A stretch of DNA of 35,877 bases, taken from positions 1-35,877 of the IMG/VR virus record IMGVR_UViG_3300049893_001114; one strand, 5' to 3'. Positions 13,943 to 35,877 of this stretch are shown here, piece after piece. This stretch comes from a virus. Below the pieces are notes generated by a model. That model was not told the DNA's origin. It worked only from the letters and a program-made list of their open reading frames with translations, and made no database searches. Each line of letters starts with the position of its first letter. The stretch's first letter is position 1. The position numbers were made by a program, and so were the translations under genes.

Positions 13943-13963
13943 TCTTTACACTTCTTTACACTT
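13943..13963 (-). repeat. dispersed 21-base repeat, copy 1
   Basis: Minus-strand AAGTGTAAAGAAGTGTAAAGA spans the stop codon of NinG. A copy differing at one base lies at 20324-20344 and a weaker one at 17504-17524. All three lie at or over gene ends in the same orientation. Confidence 0.55.
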
Positions 13964-14500
13964 CAGCTCCTTAATCTTGCTCTGATAATGTTTTGCTATC
14001 TCTGCGTAATCCGCTGCACTTCGCTTAACTACGGTTGACAGTTCAAGCGCCTCAACTCGCTCAATTCCTATTTTTGCGATAAGTCCAGCGCGGTACATTA
14101 CTAGGTTTCCGCTTAGGTAGTTATTACAGGCTACGCACTGCTTATGGCAGTTGTCTTCGTTAAATCTTAAATCAGCTCTGGCCCCTACTGTTTTGTAGTG
14201 CCCTGCGTGCCATTGGCCGCCCCAGTCTTTTGGCTTATCGCAACTAATACACCCTAAATCCCTGTCGCGTAACCGTATAAACTCGTTAAAAGCCTTCTGC
14301 GCCTTCGATTTTTGGAAGCTGGCGTCATTGGATAGCATCTCATCCTTTCTGGCCTTGTGCGCACGTTTAGCAAGTTTTTCAGACTGTTTAACCGCTAATG
14401 CAATGGCGCAACTTGGCGAGCAAGCCTTTTGTAAAATCCTAACCGGTGTAAATTCCTTTTTGCACTCCCTGCATTTTTTTAATTTTACTGCTCTTTGCAT
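13946..14500 (-). CDS. ninG: NinG-like recombination protein
   Basis: 184 aa. The Cys arrangement at the start (CREC at 10-13 and CSPSC at 27-31) and the HNH-like second half (CISCDKP, WHAGHY, then CHKQCVACN) are those of lambda NinG/Rap, a nuclease that cuts recombination intermediates. A charged linker rich in Lys, Ala and Arg separates them. An AAGG site lies before the ATG at 14500. It follows cassette array 1 in the operon and is downstream of NinB, as in lambda except for the inserted cassettes. Confidence 0.9.
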   Translation of the reverse strand: MQRAVKLKKCRECKKEFTPVRILQKACSPSCAIALAVKQSEKLAKRAHKARKDEMLSNDASFQKSKAQKAFNEFIRLRDRDLGCISCDKPKDWGGQWHAGHYKTVGARADLRFNEDNCHKQCVACNNYLSGNLVMYRAGLIAKIGIERVEALELSTVVKRSAADYAEIAKHYQSKIKELKCKEV

Positions 14501-14539
14501 ACTAGCCTTAAATAAAAAGTTAAGTTATTGATTTTGTTA

Positions 14540-14602
14540 GAAACACGAAAAAATAAAAACCGGAAATATACGGTCTTCACTGTATATTCCTCTGTTATAT
14601 TT
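14540..14602 (-). terminator. 63-bp array-end element E1 (terminator-like hairpin)
   Basis: Read on the minus strand, GGAATATAC pairs with GTATATTTCC (one bulge), followed by GGTTTTTATTTTTT, a good intrinsic terminator. The element is shared with 22775-22837: both are exactly 63 bp, with 22 of 23 bases matching at the left, 23 of 23 at the right, and a divergent 17-base centre that still pairs with the conserved right arm. It begins at the stop codon of the last cassette gene of array 1. Read on the plus strand it also looks like an imperfect attC ending in GTTATAT. Confidence 0.8.
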
Positions 14603-14789
14603 GTTTTCTCAAGAAGTGGTCATCCTGAATAATTTCAAATATTTCATGGCTCTCCGCACCATGCTTTTTTGCTAAAGTGATTAACTTCCTGCACATATCA
14701 TTAAGTGCGAAGTTGGTAGCGGTTTTACTTTCTAAATCTTTCCTAAGCCCCACTATCACAGCTTTGTCTCTAGCAATTTTGTCTTTCAT
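14595..14789 (-). CDS. 64-aa helical cassette protein (array 1, third cassette)
   Basis: MKDKIARDKAVIVGLRKDLE and on to a C-terminal EIIQDDHFLRKQI: charged and helical with a possible coiled coil. The ATG at 14789 has GGGGTGG about eight bases upstream; a longer reading from 14894 would translate the attC and is rejected. The TAA stop lies inside ATATAAC, an R''-like core. The family is not recognised. A possible toxin, antitoxin or small regulator is only a guess from size and context. Confidence 0.72.
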   Translation of the reverse strand: MKDKIARDKAVIVGLRKDLESKTATNFALNDMCRKLITLAKKHGAESHEIFEIIQDDHFLRKQI

Positions 14790-14808
14790 TTTTAAAACCA
14801 CCCCAAAA

Positions 14809-14886
14809 ATATAACAAATCGTTGCAGCATCACTCCGCTGCGCTACGTTGGATGGGCTGCGCCCACCGCTGAACTCGGCGTTATGC
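14809..14886 (-). other. attC site 3 (family III)
   Basis: 78 bp. Minus strand: R'' GCATAAC, spacer GCCGA, L'' GTTCAGC, long loop, L' GCTGCAAC (extra C unpaired), spacer GATTT, R' GTTATAT. The L arms pair fully apart from the single extrahelical base, and the R cores TAAC/GTTA pair. The exonuclease stop codon TAA is in R''. Clearly related to site 4. Confidence 0.9.
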
Positions 14887-15324
14887 GGTCGCAATTGTGT
14901 AGCTTTTTGCTATCGCCTTTGCATCGAGCAAAGCATTGTGTGGAACTGAAGATTCTTTTGAAGTTATACCCCAATGCAAGTAAAAAGTTATATTTTGCAT
15001 TGCTGGGCATTCACCGCCACCAACTTCTATTAAGTCACAAAAATGCTTTATATCGGTAGGCCAATCTGCAATAACAGTTATATGCTCAAACATGGAAAAA
15101 ATTTCAGCAATTCTATTTGCTACTACTTTTTTATCTACATACACAAAAGGCGCACTGCAATGATGAAGCACAGGAATAACATTTTTAGCTACCCAGTCAT
15201 CTTGTGCGCAATCTTTAAAAATGGCGTAAATTTCTGGCGCAAGCCCTTCTACTTGAGGCACCATTGCAAAACTAATAAGCTCACCTTTAAAGCCGTCAAA
15301 CTCGCAATCTATAAAAAATTTCAT
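14881..15324 (-). CDS. DEDD-type 3'-5' exonuclease in a gene cassette
   Basis: 147 aa from the ATG at 15324; an upstream ATG lies too close to attC. The exonuclease residues are visible: Asp6 and Glu8 in FIDCEFDG, an Asp in VIADWPTD (about 90-97), and HNALLD (His129, Asp134), the DEDDh pattern. The short single-domain form resembles Rv2179c-type exoribonucleases. Likely substrates are RNA 3' ends or short oligonucleotides. It starts 12 bases after attC site 2 and ends in attC site 3, the normal compact cassette layout. A role in counter-defence or RNA turnover is inference. Confidence 0.82.
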   Translation of the reverse strand: MKFFIDCEFDGFKGELISFAMVPQVEGLAPEIYAIFKDCAQDDWVAKNVIPVLHHCSAPFVYVDKKVVANRIAEIFSMFEHITVIADWPTDIKHFCDLIEVGGGECPAMQNITFYLHWGITSKESSVPHNALLDAKAIAKSYTIATA

Positions 15325-15335
15325 GCTTAAACCTC

Positions 15336-15420
15336 GCATAACAAAGTTATCAAGCGGACGCTATCTAAGTCCGCGTATTTATCATTTGTGAAACGTGCGC
15401 CGCTTATAACGGCGTTATGA
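15336..15420 (-). other. attC site 2 (family II)
   Basis: 85 bp. Minus strand: R'' TCATAAC, spacer GCC, L'' GTTATAAGCGG, loop, L' CCGCTTGATAAC (one extra G), spacer TTT, R' GTTATGC. The L arms pair over 11 bp with a single extrahelical base and the GCC/TTT spacer is unpaired, the hallmarks of an IntI substrate. Site 6 has the same length and design. Confidence 0.93.
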
Positions 15421-15660
15421 CTTGGCGGTTGAATTAAATACTGCGCAAGCCCAAACAGCATAAGCTCCGTAAGCAATAAATAAGATTCCAAAAATCGGGT
15501 CGAGCCAATGCTCAAACCGTTCGCCAAAAATCAATTTTTCAACACTTGCCTCAATAATGTTAAAAAACACAAAAAATAAAATCACTACAAGAGTGCTTGT
15601 TACTGGATTACCTTTGCATGATGCAGCCAATGTCATTACTGAATTTTGCAGTTGTTCCAT
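15415..15660 (-). CDS. two-span membrane protein in a gene cassette
   Basis: 81 aa with hydrophobic stretches at about residues 20-40 (STLVVILFFVFFNIIEASVE) and 54-74 (PIFGILFIAYGAYAVWACAV), linked by a charged loop. A short N-terminal polar region carries a Cys. The ATG lies 26 bases after the R' core of attC site 1, and the stop TAA is inside the R'' core of site 2. The family is not recognised. Small membrane proteins are common integron cargo. Confidence 0.75.
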   Translation of the reverse strand: MEQLQNSVMTLAASCKGNPVTSTLVVILFFVFFNIIEASVEKLIFGERFEHWLDPIFGILFIAYGAYAVWACAVFNSTAKS

Positions 15661-15686
15661 AATTAGTTCTCGCTTCGTTTAATTGG

Positions 15687-15768
15687 TCATAACAAGGCGT
15701 AGCAGCATCACTACGCCTTCGGCTTCGTTCGACGCTATAGCGGGCGCGGCTGTACATTGGCGTTAAAC
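15687..15768 (-). other. attC site 1 (family I)
   Basis: 82 bp. Minus strand: R'' GTTTAAC, spacer GCCAAT, L'' GTACAGC, a loop with its own small hairpins, L' GCTGCTAC (extra C), spacer GCCTT, R' GTTATGA. The stop codon of the upstream phage gene lies in R''. Site 5 shares its arms and spacers. Confidence 0.9.
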
Positions 15769-16236
15769 CCCAACAATAACCGCCTCAAACTCACAATGAC
15801 TATACCGCCCTTTGTTTTTGTGGCCTTCCGGGATCGCGTCATTGCATTTTAAACACTCTCTAAGCTCGGACTCCATTGCGTCATTTAGTATTTGTGACTT
15901 TTTACCCTGTAGTGCGCACGTAAAAGTAAACTCAATCTCATCGACTTTTAAACCTCGCTTTTCAGTTTCGAAAACGACTCGCAGCGTTACTATATATGTA
16001 AACTCAGCGTTCATAATCCATTCGCTTGATGATGCCCATAGGTTTTGCACAATTATCCTCTGTGTCGGATTTTTGTGCGTAACATTTCCCGCGATTATTT
16101 CCGCATTGTTTTCAAACGGATTTTTATCAGTCCATGTAAGCGTTAGCCCTTTCAGTCCGCGTCTTGCGCGCTCCATGTAGGACGCAATTTTCTTTTTATG
16201 CCCGCTTCGCTGCCTGGGTTTTCGTAGTGCTGTCAT
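15763..16236 (-). CDS. hypothetical phage protein at the left border of array 1
   Basis: 157 aa, basic N-terminus (LRKPRQRSGHKKKIASYMER) then a mixed alpha/beta body with a CLKC pair near residue 126. The ATG overlaps the NinB stop by four bases and has a strong GGGAGG site, so it belongs to the phage operon rather than to a cassette. Its TAA stop is supplied by the R'' core of attC site 1, so the cassette insertion may have replaced or trimmed its true end. Function unknown. Confidence 0.72.
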   Translation of the reverse strand: MTALRKPRQRSGHKKKIASYMERARRGLKGLTLTWTDKNPFENNAEIIAGNVTHKNPTQRIIVQNLWASSSEWIMNAEFTYIVTLRVVFETEKRGLKVDEIEFTFTCALQGKKSQILNDAMESELRECLKCNDAIPEGHKNKGRYSHCEFEAVIVGV

Positions 16237-21057: not shown

Positions 21058-21809
21058 CAGAAGTTCCTCGCGCGTTCTAGGTCAAAAGTGTAGGCGTTGC
21101 GTTCGGCTTGTTTCTCTGCTGCTGTTTTGTATTGGCCCTGTGCAGAGTTTTGCATCCATTGAACCTCAAAACCTCGCCATCCACGGGTAACGCATTCAGC
21201 TATGCATTGGTCAACTGAGTAGCCAAAGGTTGCCGCCTTGCGTAGCTCAACAGCAAAGCGGTTGATAACAGTTTGGCTAACATTGGCTTTGAGCCTTTTG
21301 CGCATAGATAGCCAGTCTGCCATAGTCTGATCGCTTGGCATTGAAGGCCAGCAAGAGTAATCGAGTTGAACTTTTTTAGGCGCAGCCGTTTGAGCCGTAG
21401 GCGATAATGATTCTATGACGGTTCTATTTGACGGTTCTATGACGGTTCTGGGTGCAGCTCCTGCACTGGGGGGGTGCAGCTCCTGCACTGGGGGGGGTGC
21501 AGCTCCTGCACTACCTAGTGAATCTCCTGCACTACCTACCAACATATTTTTATTGATTTTGTACATGTTTGAAGTTTGTTCGCCAGCCTTGAATCTGCTT
21601 TCAACTGAAAGAAATCCGCTATCAACTAACGCGCCAATATGATTGATTACGCTTCTACGAGACATTTCACACTGTGATGCGATAGTTGCAAATGAAGGCC
21701 AGCACTCCCCATCATCGTTTGCGTTGTCGCATAGCTTCAAAAGGACTAGCTTTCTAAGTGGGTTATTTACCCTTGCATCAAATGCAAAAGTTAGGTATTT
21801 GATGCTCAT
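21057..21809 (-). CDS. lambda O-like replication initiator containing the origin
   Basis: 250 aa. The N-terminal winged helix-turn-helix (DGECWPSFATIASQCEMSRR, residues 33-52) binds origin DNA. A low-complexity linker (about 93-140, rich in Ala, Gly and Pro) covers the iterons at 21451-21536. The C-terminal domain would bind the P-like loader. As in lambda, the origin is inside the initiator gene. The start overlaps the stop of the HNH-like gene by four bases (ATGA). Confidence 0.83.
   Translation of the reverse strand: MSIKYLTFAFDARVNNPLRKLVLLKLCDNANDDGECWPSFATIASQCEMSRRSVINHIGALVDSGFLSVESRFKAGEQTSNMYKINKNMLVGSAGDSLGSAGAAPPPVQELHPPSAGAAPRTVIEPSNRTVIESLSPTAQTAAPKKVQLDYSCWPSMPSDQTMADWLSMRKRLKANVSQTVINRFAVELRKAATFGYSVDQCIAECVTRGWRGFEVQWMQNSAQGQYKTAAEKQAERNAYTFDLERARNF
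21451..21536. other. replication origin: iterons inside the O-like gene
   Basis: Three perfect 17-base repeats GGTGCAGCTCCTGCACT begin at 21451, 21473 and 21496, with a fourth half-copy at 21524-21536. The period of 22-23 bases places them on one face of the helix. Each holds the palindrome GTGCAG-ctc-CTGCAC. Because the period is not a multiple of three, the repeats encode different residues in each copy, so the conservation is at DNA level. A GACGGTTCT direct repeat (three copies) follows at about 21418-21449. Confidence 0.88.
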
Positions 21810-22735: not shown

Positions 22736-22774
22736 TGTTTTCATAAATAAAAACCTAAGTGGTTGATATTTAAG

Positions 22775-22837
22775 GAAACGCGAAAAAATAAAAACCGTGA
22801 TATGACAGCGTGCGCTGTATATTCCTCTGTTATATTT
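22775..22837 (-). terminator. 63-bp array-end element E2 (terminator-like hairpin)
   Basis: Second copy of the element at 14540-14602. On the minus strand ATAT-ACAGCG pairs with CGCTGT-c-ATAT, then CACGGTTTTTATTTTTT follows. Flanks are shared with E1; the centre differs but keeps a stem with the conserved arm. Starts at the stop codon of the last cassette gene of array 2. Confidence 0.8.
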
Positions 22838-23018
22838 CAAATACCTTGAAGCATTTACTACATCGGTAAACATGAAAATGCGATGGAATTCCGTCACCGC
22901 CCTTACTGCTATGGTAATCATGAACATCAAAGAACTTATCGCTAAACCAGCAAATTGATCCATCTTTTACATGACCAAACCCAAATAAACATTTAATTGC
23001 CCACCATGCTTTTTTCAT
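22830..23018 (-). CDS. 62-aa Cys-containing cassette protein (array 2, third cassette)
   Basis: MKKAWWAIKCLFGFGHVKDG, ending HVYRCSKCFKVFEI. A CxxC pair near the end, another Cys pair earlier and several His could hold zinc. The ATG at 23018 lies 13 bases after the R' core of attC site 6; a longer reading would translate the attC. The stop TAA is in an ATATAAC core, as in the last cassette of array 1. Confidence 0.7.
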   Translation of the reverse strand: MKKAWWAIKCLFGFGHVKDGSICWFSDKFFDVHDYHSSKGGDGIPSHFHVYRCSKCFKVFEI

Positions 23019-23030
23019 ATCAAAATCCAA

Positions 23031-23115
23031 ATATAACAATGTTATGAAACGGATGCGGCATAACACCGTGTTTTAAATTACTACCTACTGCGCACCGTTT
23101 ATAACGGCGTTAGCT
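23031..23115 (-). other. attC site 6 (family II)
   Basis: 85 bp. Minus strand: R'' AGCTAAC, spacer GCC, L'' GTTATAAACGG, loop, L' CCGTTTCATAAC (extra C), spacer ATT, R' GTTATAT. L arms pair over 11 bp with one extrahelical base. Same length and design as site 2, with compensating changes in the L arms (AAGCGG/CCGCTT there, AAACGG/CCGTTT here). Confidence 0.93.
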
Positions 23116-23310
23116 GTTGTCGCATTTACAAGAAGTAACTGTGACTTGCCAGCACCCTTCAAATTTAGGCTGAATGGTGCATCCGTCCGCAATCCATTGG
23201 CCTAGAATTTTTCCAGCTTCTTTTCGCTCAGTATTTTGGTAATCCATTGCCCCAACAATCAAACCGCATTGGCAGATTGCAATAAAGCCTTTAGGTTGTA
23301 ATTTTGCCAT
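23110..23310 (-). CDS. 66-aa Cys-rich cassette protein (array 2, second cassette)
   Basis: MAKLQPKGFIAICQCGLIVG, then a helix ERKEAGKILGQWIADGCTI and an ending SCKCDNS. The CxC pairs at both ends suggest one zinc site. The ATG at 23310 is chosen with GGAG upstream; a GTG four codons earlier is possible. The stop TAA is in the R'' core of attC site 6. It resembles short proteins found in phages and plasmids, function unknown. Confidence 0.72.
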   Translation of the reverse strand: MAKLQPKGFIAICQCGLIVGAMDYQNTERKEAGKILGQWIADGCTIQPKFEGCWQVTVTSCKCDNS

Positions 23311-23335
23311 TTTGTTTTTCACTCCGTTAAGTTTC

Positions 23336-23391
23336 AGCTAACAAGGCGTACCATCCGACAGCTACGCTGCGGCTGTACATTGGCGTTACAT
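23336..23391 (-). other. attC site 5 (family I)
   Basis: 56 bp, the shortest site. Minus strand: R'' ATGTAAC, spacer GCCAAT, arm GTACAGCCG, inner hairpin CAGC-gta-GCTG, arm CGGATGGTAC (one extra G), spacer GCCTT, R' GTTAGCT. Nearly the whole site pairs, as in short attC sites of classical resistance cassettes. Confidence 0.9.
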
Positions 23392-23586
23392 TCACTCGCT
23401 AGGTATGTTTTCTTTAGTCAAAGAAACAAACTTCTTATTTGCAATCCACTCATCTTGAGTAAATCCGCACTTAGTACATTCTCTTCGCTGCATAACTTTT
23501 TCTTGCTTACACGGAATAGAGTAAAAATAACTCAAGCTAGTTGTTTCGTATCTCTCCCATTTGCTCCACTTATGAAAAAAGCACAT
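23392..23586 (-). CDS. 64-aa zinc-ribbon-like cassette protein (array 2, first cassette)
   Basis: MCFFHKWSKWERYETTSLSY, then RRECTKCGFTQDEW. The CxxC pair with an earlier Cys and His suggests a small zinc ribbon. GAGGA lies eight bases before the ATG at 23586. Its stop TGA is the only one in the arrays that falls just outside the attC core. The HKW-KW start is frequent in short phage and cassette proteins of unknown role. Confidence 0.74.
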   Translation of the reverse strand: MCFFHKWSKWERYETTSLSYFYSIPCKQEKVMQRRECTKCGFTQDEWIANKKFVSLTKENIPSE

Positions 23587-23609
23587 TTTTAAATCCTCAT
23601 ATTTTGTAA

Positions 23610-23684
23610 ATGTAACGAGTCGTTGCAGCACACTACGCTGCGCTTCGCTGGATGCTTTCGGCACCGCTGAACTAGGCGTTATGC
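23610..23684 (-). other. attC site 4 (family III)
   Basis: 75 bp. Minus strand: R'' GCATAAC, spacer GCCTA, L'' GTTCAGC, loop, L' GCTGCAAC (extra C), spacer GACTC, R' GTTACAT. Same arms as site 3. The stop codon of the phage gene at 23679 lies in R''. Confidence 0.9.
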
Positions 23685-23921
23685 CGTCATTTCTTCGTAA
23701 TACTTCCGCACAATTCTGCACTCGATATGGTCTTGATTAGACTGCGTATCTAGCCAGTATTTCACATCATCCAGGCTATTTTTTCGCCACCACGGTTCAG
23801 AGTAAATTCGCTGCCGAGCCCGAACCATAGTCACAAAAACTGCCAGATCATCCTCGCTGCAGTCGTCTAAAAAATCATTCGCAGCGCTCCAAAACTTCGA
23901 CCGATCCGTTTTCTTTTTCAT
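23679..23921 (-). CDS. 80-aa phage protein at the border of array 2
   Basis: MKKKTDRSKFWSAANDFLDD and an acidic, aromatic, helical body with no recognised domain. It overlaps the upstream gene by 47 bases, so it belongs to the phage operon. Its stop TAA is part of attC site 4, suggesting that insertion of the cassettes changed its end. Confidence 0.68.
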   Translation of the reverse strand: MKKKTDRSKFWSAANDFLDDCSEDDLAVFVTMVRARQRIYSEPWWRKNSLDDVKYWLDTQSNQDHIECRIVRKYYEEMTA

Positions 23922-25261: not shown

Positions 25262-25921
25262 ATGGAAAAAACACTAGAAGAGAAATTCAAGGAGCTTCGC
25301 GCTCCATTCCCAGATAACCTGGTTGGATGGCTGCCAAAACCAATGTTAAAGCGCGAAGATATGGACAAAATACCCAAGCACAACTGCCAATTGTGCGGCC
25401 AATACCACGCAAGGGACAAGGTTATGCACCTTTCCTATGTTGGGCATGCTGCACTAACCGATAGGCTTTTAGATGTCGATCCAGCTTGGACGTGGGAGCC
25501 GCTTTCGGTCGGTCAAGATGGCTACCCAATAGTTGACCGAGATGGCGGTATGTGGATTAAGCTAACGGTCTTAGGCGTTACTAAAATAGGTTATGGCGAG
25601 GCCGCTGCTGCAAATGGAAAGACTGGCGGAAATGCAACCAAGGAACGAATTGGTGACGCGCTTAGAAACGCTGCTATGCGGTTTGGCTGCGCGCTTGAAA
25701 TGTGGCATAAGGGCGACTTAAACGCGCATAAAATAAATGAATTTGTGCCAGAAAAAGAACCCGAAGAGAAGGAAATAAAAAAACAGCCAATAAGCGAAGA
25801 TCGACTAGCTGTCGCAATTGCAAAAATAAAGGCTGGAGAATTTTCTAGGGATCGACTTGATATGCTTTTTGAGCTAACTGCAGAACAATTAATAACTTTA
25901 GAAATGGAGCTAGGGCAATGA
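25262..25921 (+). CDS. Rad52-like single-strand annealing protein
   Basis: 219 aa. The core follows the Rad52/Rad22 phage family: LPKPMLKREDM at the start, HLSYVGHAALTDRLLDVDPA, WIKLTVLGVTKIGYGEA and RIGDALRNAAMRFGCALEMW. A CxxC pair (CQLC) sits at about 43-46. The C-terminal quarter is charged. It anneals complementary single strands, together with the exonuclease encoded next, as in lambda Red. The last four bases overlap the exonuclease start. Confidence 0.87.
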   Translation: MEKTLEEKFKELRAPFPDNLVGWLPKPMLKREDMDKIPKHNCQLCGQYHARDKVMHLSYVGHAALTDRLLDVDPAWTWEPLSVGQDGYPIVDRDGGMWIKLTVLGVTKIGYGEAAAANGKTGGNATKERIGDALRNAAMRFGCALEMWHKGDLNAHKINEFVPEKEPEEKEIKKQPISEDRLAVAIAKIKAGEFSRDRLDMLFELTAEQLITLEMELGQ

Positions 25922-26571
25922 TTAGATGCTCATCAATCGCTGATATTATGACTGAGCCGCGCACAAAAAGCGCGGAATGGTCTGACACGGCAAAAAGCGC
26001 CATGCTTGAGATCGTTCGTGAGTCTCTTTTTGGGGTGCGTAAATCGCTGGACGATATGCGCTATATCCAAAAGGGTAAGCAATGCGAGGATGAAGGCATA
26101 GAGCTTTATAACAACGTTTTTTTGTACAATCTTGAGAAAGTGCCTAGCACTGGCCGAAGGAATAACGGAATAATCACGGGCGAGCCTGATCTTGTTGCGT
26201 CATCGTCACAAAAAGGCGTTGATATTAAAGTCGCTTGGTCGCTTCTTACGTTCCCGCTAACAGCCGAGCAAGCAGACAAAAAAGGCTACGAATGGCAAGC
26301 TCGCGGTTATATGTGCCTATTTGACCTTCCAGTTTGGGAAATAGCCTACTGCGCCATAGATACCCCTGAAGAGCTTTTAAAGCCTTGGGATGAGCCGGAG
26401 GCGCATAGAATTGATTCGTCAATCCCTTTGCACCACCGCATAACCATTGCACGTTATGAGCGTGATTTAGATAAAGAGAAGTCCATGCTCGAAAAGTGCG
26501 CCAAGGCTAACGAGTGGATAGAACAAGCCATTAAAAACTATGCAATAGAACACGACCAATACATTAAATAA
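25918..26571 (+). CDS. YqaJ-type PD-(D/E)XK exonuclease
   Basis: 217 aa. Active-site residues are visible: Glu89 and Asp91 in TGEPDLV, and Asp102-Ile-Lys104 (GVDIKVAW), followed by the helix with Gln127 and Tyr131 (YEWQARGYM). These are the lambda-exonuclease/YqaJ hallmarks; the enzyme resects double-stranded ends to feed the annealing protein. ATGA overlap with the upstream gene. Confidence 0.87.
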   Translation: MIRCSSIADIMTEPRTKSAEWSDTAKSAMLEIVRESLFGVRKSLDDMRYIQKGKQCEDEGIELYNNVFLYNLEKVPSTGRRNNGIITGEPDLVASSSQKGVDIKVAWSLLTFPLTAEQADKKGYEWQARGYMCLFDLPVWEIAYCAIDTPEELLKPWDEPEAHRIDSSIPLHHRITIARYERDLDKEKSMLEKCAKANEWIEQAIKNYAIEHDQYIK

Positions 26572-34845: not shown

Positions 34846-35877
34846 CGAATGCGCCTTATGCCGTTGGTCACTAGGACTGCTGTTGAGTTTGTGTTGTTTT
34901 CGATATACGCCTGAGTGTAGTCATTGACGTTTAAATTTAACTGCCACGGAATAACGAATCGTGACGGGCTTACGTTGCTAATCTGCGCGGTTACTTTTGT
35001 GCTAGGCAAAATAGTGCCGGTTAAAGCTAGATAAACCGATACAGTTACAGGCGTTCCCGTAGTTGCTTGCACATAAAAAACATCATCAGTCGGGAATGTA
35101 ATTCGCTTCTCGCTGAGGCTTGTTAGTTTTCCGCTGCCGTTTGTGCTGAATTTAGATAGCCGCTCGGTGGCCCATGTTGAACTATTGATTAGTGTCGGAG
35201 TATTGACCGCGCTAAATGTCGTATTTGTTGCATTACCGTTGAAATATATCAGCGCATCCGAAATCGTATCTTCTAAGCCGCCATTGTCAGAAGCCTCTAC
35301 GCGAATATCCGATATAGTAATTCCACCGGCTAGCGGGGCCATTGCTGAGGCGCCAAGGCCACATGACTCAATAGTTAAAATGTTATTCGCTGAAATGTTG
35401 GCGCTGTTTGCCAATGCGTAAAGAAATGATGAACCGCTGGGCCCGCTGGGCTCAATGTCTCGAAATTCCCCACCGCTTACAACCGCATTTGAAATATCGA
35501 ATAGTTTATGAGTAACCGAAGTCGCAACCGTGAAAACTTTTGTGGCCGAAAGGATACGAATATCGTTATTAAATACGAACCCCTGCCCCGTTATCGAAGC
35601 GATTAGGACGTTACTCCAGTTAAAGTTCGTGAAGTTGGTGCCAGTCCCTGTAAACGAACCCAAATGCTTAACCGCGTATATAGATGAATCTTGAACGACA
35701 CTAATACCAGCACCAGAGAAGTCTATAAGCGTTCCATTGGGGCATTCAAAACCTAATTGATTGATCGCCCAGCTAGCATTGACAGAGGTAAACATCACAC
35801 CAGTCCCCGTGTAAATCAATGCCGAATAAAACGAGTTTTTGGACGTTATGTAAACGCCATTTTGCACAATGAACCGC
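34842..35877 (-). CDS. virion/tail protein, C-terminal part (continues at the left end of the window)
   Basis: Remaining residues of the 427-aa protein whose start is at 404. With the 156-base overlap removed, 248 bases at the left end plus 1036 here give exactly 428 codons, so the join keeps the frame. This part is a long series of beta strands (for example TNFTNFNWSNVLIASITGQG), Asn/Thr/Ser-rich, which suggests a solenoid or fibre, and ends basic (NGIRRIR). Reading from the internal GTG at 35867 would be an artefact of the contig edge. Confidence 0.85.
   Translation of the reverse strand, partial: RFIVQNGVYITSKNSFYSALIYTGTGVMFTSVNASWAINQLGFECPNGTLIDFSGAGISVVQDSSIYAVKHLGSFTGTGTNFTNFNWSNVLIASITGQGFVFNNDIRILSATKVFTVATSVTHKLFDISNAVVSGGEFRDIEPSGPSGSSFLYALANSANISANNILTIESCGLGASAMAPLAGGITISDIRVEASDNGGLEDTISDALIYFNGNATNTTFSAVNTPTLINSSTWATERLSKFSTNGSGKLTSLSEKRITFPTDDVFYVQATTGTPVTVSVYLALTGTILPSTKVTAQISNVSPSRFVIPWQLNLNVNDYTQAYIENNTNSTAVLVTNGIRRIR
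35722..35877. repeat. terminal overlap, right copy
   Basis: Matches 1-156 with three differences, each silent in the tail gene (Gly, Pro and Gly codons). Subtracting it gives a circle of 35,721 bp. Confidence 0.93.

Follow-up and report, generated by a model that had tools for sequence, protein, structure and literature searches.

Phage arrays of inverted cassettes with attI-like sites, and a candidate role for the host integron integrase

Integron-type arrays in phages

Integrons are usually regarded as bacterial devices, and phage examples as captured fragments. Clusters of attC sites lacking an integron integrase (CALINs) have been described in phages by Qi et al. (2023), who searched 10,705 genomes and found 17 phage CALINs (PMC9892861), in agreement with the remark of a sequence-only reading of the present DNA that such arrays have rarely been described in lytic phages. 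In that study, five of six tested phage CALIN attC sites recombine with attI1 through IntI1, and the CALINs of the virulent phages TJE1, PH101 and P12002L are, like the arrays analysed here, attC clusters with no integrase; the text considered reports no attI for them, whereas our arrays have attI-like sites of their own (PMC9892861). In TJE1, which we examined, the gene points forward with respect to attC, as opposed to the inverted genes here, a feature shared by many phages. Another example is the Shewanella prophage M16-3, in which a complete integron and a CALIN are both accompanied by an attI of Shewanella type (PMC9892861). This is like our case in that a phage-borne CALIN is preceded by a host-type attI, but M16-3 is a cryptic prophage with a full integron as well, whereas the present record has neither intI nor any tyrosine recombinase. 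Our own finder gave no attC in Pseudoalteromonas phage H6/1 or in the parts of H101 scanned, and the published H101 sites may lie outside the scanned part or below the finder threshold. Phage CALINs are already known; an attI-bearing, inverted-cassette system common to phages was not found described in a literature search that covered mostly open-access journal papers.

The DNA analysed here, referred to as the window, is the entire IMG/VR virus record IMGVR_UViG_3300049893_001114 (35,877 bp). The record is classed as linear and has end repeats of 156 bp, 98% alike, at 1-156 and 35722-35877; it probably represents a complete or circularly permuted genome. Families matched in the window include portal, major head protein, terminase, head closure, tailspike-like and ParB-like proteins, together with a single-strand annealing protein (SSAP) and an exonuclease at 25262-26571, and a run of genes on the - strand extends from about 24.7 kb leftward to the left end. 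There was no Rfam match in the window, the portal protein as an IMG/VR query returned no relatives, and INPHARED had no match either to the window by megablast or to the arrays by blastn, i.e. no phage isolate with the same architecture. A predicted gene contains, at 21450-21538, short direct repeats in tandem, each of about 22 nt (GTGCAGCTCCTGCACT...).

Searching IMG/VR for attC- or attI-type patterns returned some thirty more viral contigs with attC arrays, mostly IMG/VR assemblies of uncertain completeness, three of which (G001, G006 and G004) have structural genes in common with the window. Contigs found via the ParB-like gene have mostly that module in common and almost no attC in the stretches compared; on three of them (L004, L007 and L008) arrays or attI were found later, elsewhere on the contig. 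That related phages have the same system with different cassettes had been overlooked by the sequence-only reading.

attC arrays and attI-like sites

Six non-overlapping attC sites lie on the + strand of the window, three in an array at 14.8-15.8 kb and three in another at 23.0-23.7 kb. For attC and attI alike, detection relied on self-built finders and one gapless PWM, where the attC finder is a simple pattern of R''/R' boxes and L''/L' pairing with one bulge, and a covariance model of our own, R1, built from bacterial attC arms alone, was used in place of IntegronFinder/HattCI. In dinucleotide-shuffled windows the finder gave a mean of 0.26 hits and at most 3 (200 shuffles), as opposed to 6 in the window. 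The first array comprises sites at 14809-14887 (TAAC..GTTA 14812-14883; R1 41.8 bits, E 4e-6), with the extrahelical base (EHB) in the R''-L'' arm, at 15336-15421 (15339-15417; 47.6 bits, E 2e-7) and at 15687-15769 (15690-15765), where the R1 E-value stays above 0.01. The second comprises 23031-23116 (finder 23034-23112; R1 35.6 bits), a short site of 50 nt at 23336-23392 (23339-23388; 32.4 bits) and 23610-23685 (23613-23681; 34.7 bits). R1 finds five of the six, all on the + strand, with 32-48 bits and E-values of 2e-7 to 5e-4; its scores were lower with filters off. The three sites of the first array, which had been proposed from sequence together with a covariance-model check, are confirmed by the finder and two of them by R1; the second array had been missed.

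The same reading described complete attC hairpins, which is upheld by arm pairing and covariation, but unconstrained MFE folding misses the full hairpin at some sites. Over 111 phage attC sites the L-helix arms are paired at 94%, and arm covariation, in an alignment fitted to the model, is 0.410 as opposed to 0.138 when shuffled and 0.04-0.09 when slid, which argues that the phage sites are maintained. With six sites in two clusters, and with R''/L''/L'/R' arms and an EHB on the R''-L'' arm, the window contains more than the at least two clustered attC sites that define a CALIN. The hairpins sit between co-directional genes, as would transcription terminators or RNA-processing elements between the genes of an operon. 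However, a terminator-like match is present at 0 of the 6 sites, a scan of the region gives 12 matches as opposed to 11.8 in shuffles, and both the arm covariation and the exchange breakpoints described below, which are signatures of DNA recombination, contradict this account; it was rejected for the attC hairpins and its probability is close to nil.

Each array opens, on the attC top strand, with one copy of a 94-nt element (repeat D2; 14509-14602 and 22744-22837, 78% identity) that ends in ...TATTCCTCTG^TTA. The attI-like sites (+ strand) occupy 14540-14602, with the crossover G^TTA at 14594/14595, and 22775-22837, with the crossover G^TTA at 22829/22830; the left boundary of 14594 given earlier for the array is the crossover G of the first, whose attI-like nature the sequence-only reading had missed. 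With a PWM trained without window sequences, the two sites score 29.0 and 24.9, whereas the best score across 300 shuffled windows is 18.7. Many further phage contigs have the same element, with a consensus of about GGCCGTATATTCCGCTG^TTA, just ahead of their first cassette; the PWM recovers held-out attI in G001, G014, G019, G008, G017 and G007, each followed by attC on the same strand, and has matches in contigs gathered later (two in L184, and L185, L186, L190 and L192). When IMG/VR was scanned with the attI 18-mer alone, attC arrays were found behind it in five of the six contigs returned, and the sixth (L129/G398) has one attC under the working threshold. Judged by sequence resemblance, a putative attI adjoins the first cassette of each array. 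The 94-nt repeat was also considered as a mere terminator, which was rejected because the part conserved across phages is proximal to G^TTA and is not the T-run.

An inverted repeat, GGAxATATAC...GTATATTCC, occurs within attI (14560-14590 in the window, and in phage attI generally), and extra CCGTATATTTCC copies are seen near attI in phages and bacteria; these are possibly accessory IntI-binding repeats, by analogy with DR1/DR2 of attI1. A gene for a NinG/Rap Holliday-junction endonuclease lies directly beyond the first attI-like site (13946-14500).

Inverted cassette genes and their exchange

The cassettes, read on the attC top strand from TTA to G, each carry one gene on the - strand. In the first array, the cassette at 14595-14880 encodes 64 aa with no assigned function (14595-14789), the stop codon being the crossover TTA; the second (14881-15414) encodes an RNase H family protein of 147 aa (14881-15324; phrog_2259, E 7e-25); and the third (15415-15762) encodes 81 aa (15415-15660) with hydrophobic segments by inspection and no family match. 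The second array consists of cassettes at 22830-23109, 23110-23385 and 23386-23678, whose genes encode 63 aa (22830-23021) and 66 aa (23110-23310), both with no assigned function, and 64 aa (23392-23586) with a weak match to phrog_21493, of unknown function. Upstream of the arrays, in the direction of transcription, lie - strand genes at 15763-16236, with homologs in other phage contigs, and at 23679-23921; the stop TAA of the former coincides with the TTA that follows the last attC, and that of the latter is at the last G^TTA. Across the phage contigs, genes upstream of arrays often have their stop at G^TTA too.

The EHB by definition sits on the R''-L'' arm of attC (PMC2727003), so the + strand is the top strand at all attC sites of the window, in keeping with R1 hits on that strand only. 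On both grounds, every cassette gene of the window is antisense to its attC, and these are therefore not canonical gene-then-attC cassettes. Single small co-oriented genes between the sites had been correctly noted before, but their reversal relative to the attC top strand had been overlooked. A total of 106 cassettes could be delimited in 23 of 25 contigs, all of which start with TTA (median 348 bp per whole cassette, as opposed to cassette gaps of 374-1435 bp in bacterial integrons). In 95 of these 106 the longest ORF is reversed, as it is in 35 of 38 phage cassettes gathered after the rule was formed, as opposed to 2 of 38 in bacterial control arrays with similar attC (Fisher p 4e-24 for all phage versus bacterial cassettes, which are only partly independent of one another); in about 10% of phage cassettes a forward ORF is the longer one. 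The reversed gene ends exactly at the crossover TTA in 54 of the 106 and in 24 of the 38 later ones. In a complete integron, cassette genes are co-directional with attC and read from Pc, an arrangement from which all window cassettes and most phage cassettes depart. The reversed genes of the window are co-directional with the phage transcription unit, which fits transcription together with the phage's own genes, and promoter-like matches in the array region show no excess.

These observations bear on whether the arrays are ordinary CALINs, in which bacterial cassettes, taken up by chance through transduction or illegitimate recombination, now decay in the phage. Such phage CALINs are known (PMC9892861), the canonical forward gene between attC sites in TJE1 is of this kind, and the attC flavour of the phages is akin to that of bacterial arrays. 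Against this stand the attI-like site on each of two arrays, the like architecture of some thirty contigs, the reversal of genes that is rare in bacterial arrays with similar attC, the arm covariation of maintained sites, and recent exact exchange between phages; chance capture followed by decay is a very improbable account.

Exchange is best seen in a 450-bp cassette that is identical at 437 of 450 positions in two contigs, being located at attI in G001 and internally, behind an attC, in G019, where identity of the flanks drops to about 0.45 on both sides exactly at G^TT. More shared cassettes or genes link G013/G019, G012/G014, G009/G012 and G020/G399, and genes also recur in the later contig set, so that in the related phages cassettes move as units with G^TT boundaries. 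A link of the hairpins to gene boundaries is found in the related phages as well, and hairpins lacking it, which the sequence-only reading had named as evidence against an integron origin, did not occur. In G020 and G399 (13617 and 28976; L154, L164) the same cassette gene is followed by two different complete attC sites, and identity ends at the R'' box (GTAAC^AA), as though attC had been swapped at R''; simple R' recombination does not explain this break.

The arrays could also be shuffled by the phage's own homologous recombination, with SSAP and exonuclease acting on attC repeats as short homologies and no integron integrase taking part. Such families are encoded in the window, phages are mosaic, and breaks at the R'' box are seen in G020/G399 and in the G012 pairs. 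By contrast, the G001/G019 and G013/G019 copies stand at attI in one phage and behind an attC in the other, with no flank homology and a left break exactly at G^TT, and a conserved attI and EHB asymmetry would serve no purpose in this process, which is a quite improbable driver of the arrays.

Cargo sampled from the phage cassettes includes a DNA methylase, a Lar-type restriction-alleviation protein, a nucleotidase, a PAPS-reductase-like protein and a 3'-5' exoribonuclease, the type of genes that phages deploy against hosts. Fused cassettes at G019 25105 and G012 658 (L153, L119) hold two genes with the intervening attC collapsed or lost; in G019 it is reduced to TAACAAGGCGTTA and the hairpin is gone. 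Some phages (L128 and L130, from G397 and G399, and L194) have a long attC of bacterial type (about 127 bp), hinting at occasional exchange between bacteria and phages.

Likely source of the recombinase and proposed mechanism

No tyrosine recombinase (PF00589) was found in the window record or in any of 21 attC-bearing records (positive controls 14 of 14), a result that is firm for near-complete contigs only, as contig completeness is uncertain. The window record has the integrase-free composition of a CALIN and lacks the intI of a complete integron; together with the attC sites, this supports the earlier claim of an array without integrase inside a phage.

Three bacterial integrons (L135, L136 and L137), found via the attC pattern, are sedentary chromosomal integrons of Cellvibrionaceae type, the phage landing sites thus resembling those of certain marine bacteria, one of the genomes belonging to the same GTDB family sample as Gilvimarinus (Cellvibrionaceae). 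They are like the phage arrays in attI core, attC type and G^TTA junctions, and unlike them in having intI and forward genes. Their sites next to intI, such as GGAAATATACAGCCTTCACTTTTGAATAAACTG^TTA, resemble GGAAATATACGGTCTTCACTGTATATTCCTCTG^TTA of the window, and the phage PWM scores the bacterial attI at 17.5, 13.7 and 13.8, in the right place and on the right strand (shuffle frequency 0.0005-0.006); this likeness is moderate, with scores of 14-18 as opposed to 25-48 within phages. The core TTGAATAAACTG^TTA occurs in 6 of 81 sampled Cellvibrionaceae genomes, several with adjacent intI or attC, and also in some phage attI, whereas most phage attI have a distinct variant, TATATTCCGCTG^TTA. When 369 genomes of the class were searched for the exact phage attI 18-mer, there was a single match, with one mismatch and no attC, which argues against the phage variant being just a common bacterial attI. 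The phage attC flavour had three one-mismatch matches in the 81 family genomes, one of them on a stretch with a recognisable attC. LexA-box-like sequences, read by eye, stand ahead of intI in L137 and L139.

From the resemblance of both attI and attC to those of Cellvibrionaceae-type chromosomal integrons, we infer a host of this type, and the same evidence makes its chromosomal IntI the likeliest recombinase. It is unlikely that a recombinase from other phages, plasmids or prophages of the same host drives the arrays instead: most phage attI do differ from the bacterial core and the phage cassette pool looks distinct from the bacterial one, but none of the 21 attC-bearing records encodes a tyrosine recombinase, and the bacterial core is present in some phage attI. 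It had been suggested that phages could pick up cassettes from a host integron. This is partly supported: the exact exchange observed is between phages, and the phage attI resembles a host-type attI. The majority of phage cassettes, however, are inverted and differ from those in the bacterial arrays examined, and the bulk of the traffic therefore appears confined to a phage pool.

On this sequence evidence, it is probable that the window carries two integrase-less phage integrons, served in trans by host IntI and fed by a phage-adapted pool of inverted cassettes. In the proposed mechanism, during infection IntI of the host chromosomal integron (in Cellvibrionaceae-type gammaproteobacteria) would act on the attI and attC of the phage, perhaps assisted by SOS induction and single-stranded phage DNA. 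A new cassette would insert at attI, which lies farthest along the phage operon, and would supply its own stop codon through the crossover TTA, leaving the stop of the upstream gene intact. Because IntI fixes the orientation of attC, only cassettes with inverted genes would be readable from the phage operon, and selection under this limit is proposed to have built the phage-specific inverted pool, which would serve as a store of exchangeable accessory and host-takeover genes.

The integron parts of these phages are under selection, as seen in covarying arms, a conserved attI and a stop codon at the crossover, and they are visibly used. It seems fairly likely that this reflects a widespread form of gene exchange, in which phages carry a copy of the host attI and a dedicated inverted pool, parasitise the host integrase in trans and shuffle small accessory and anti-host genes. 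If true, this would be a host-powered, site-specific route of phage evolution apart from the bacterial cassette pool. It suggests a way for phages to build up regions of accessory genes and a testable reason why cassettes are inverted, with the prediction that phage evolution is fed by the activity of host integrases. One genome of the Cellvibrionaceae family, G418 (L174, L179 and L180), has the attI core three times on three contigs, once by an intI-like gene.
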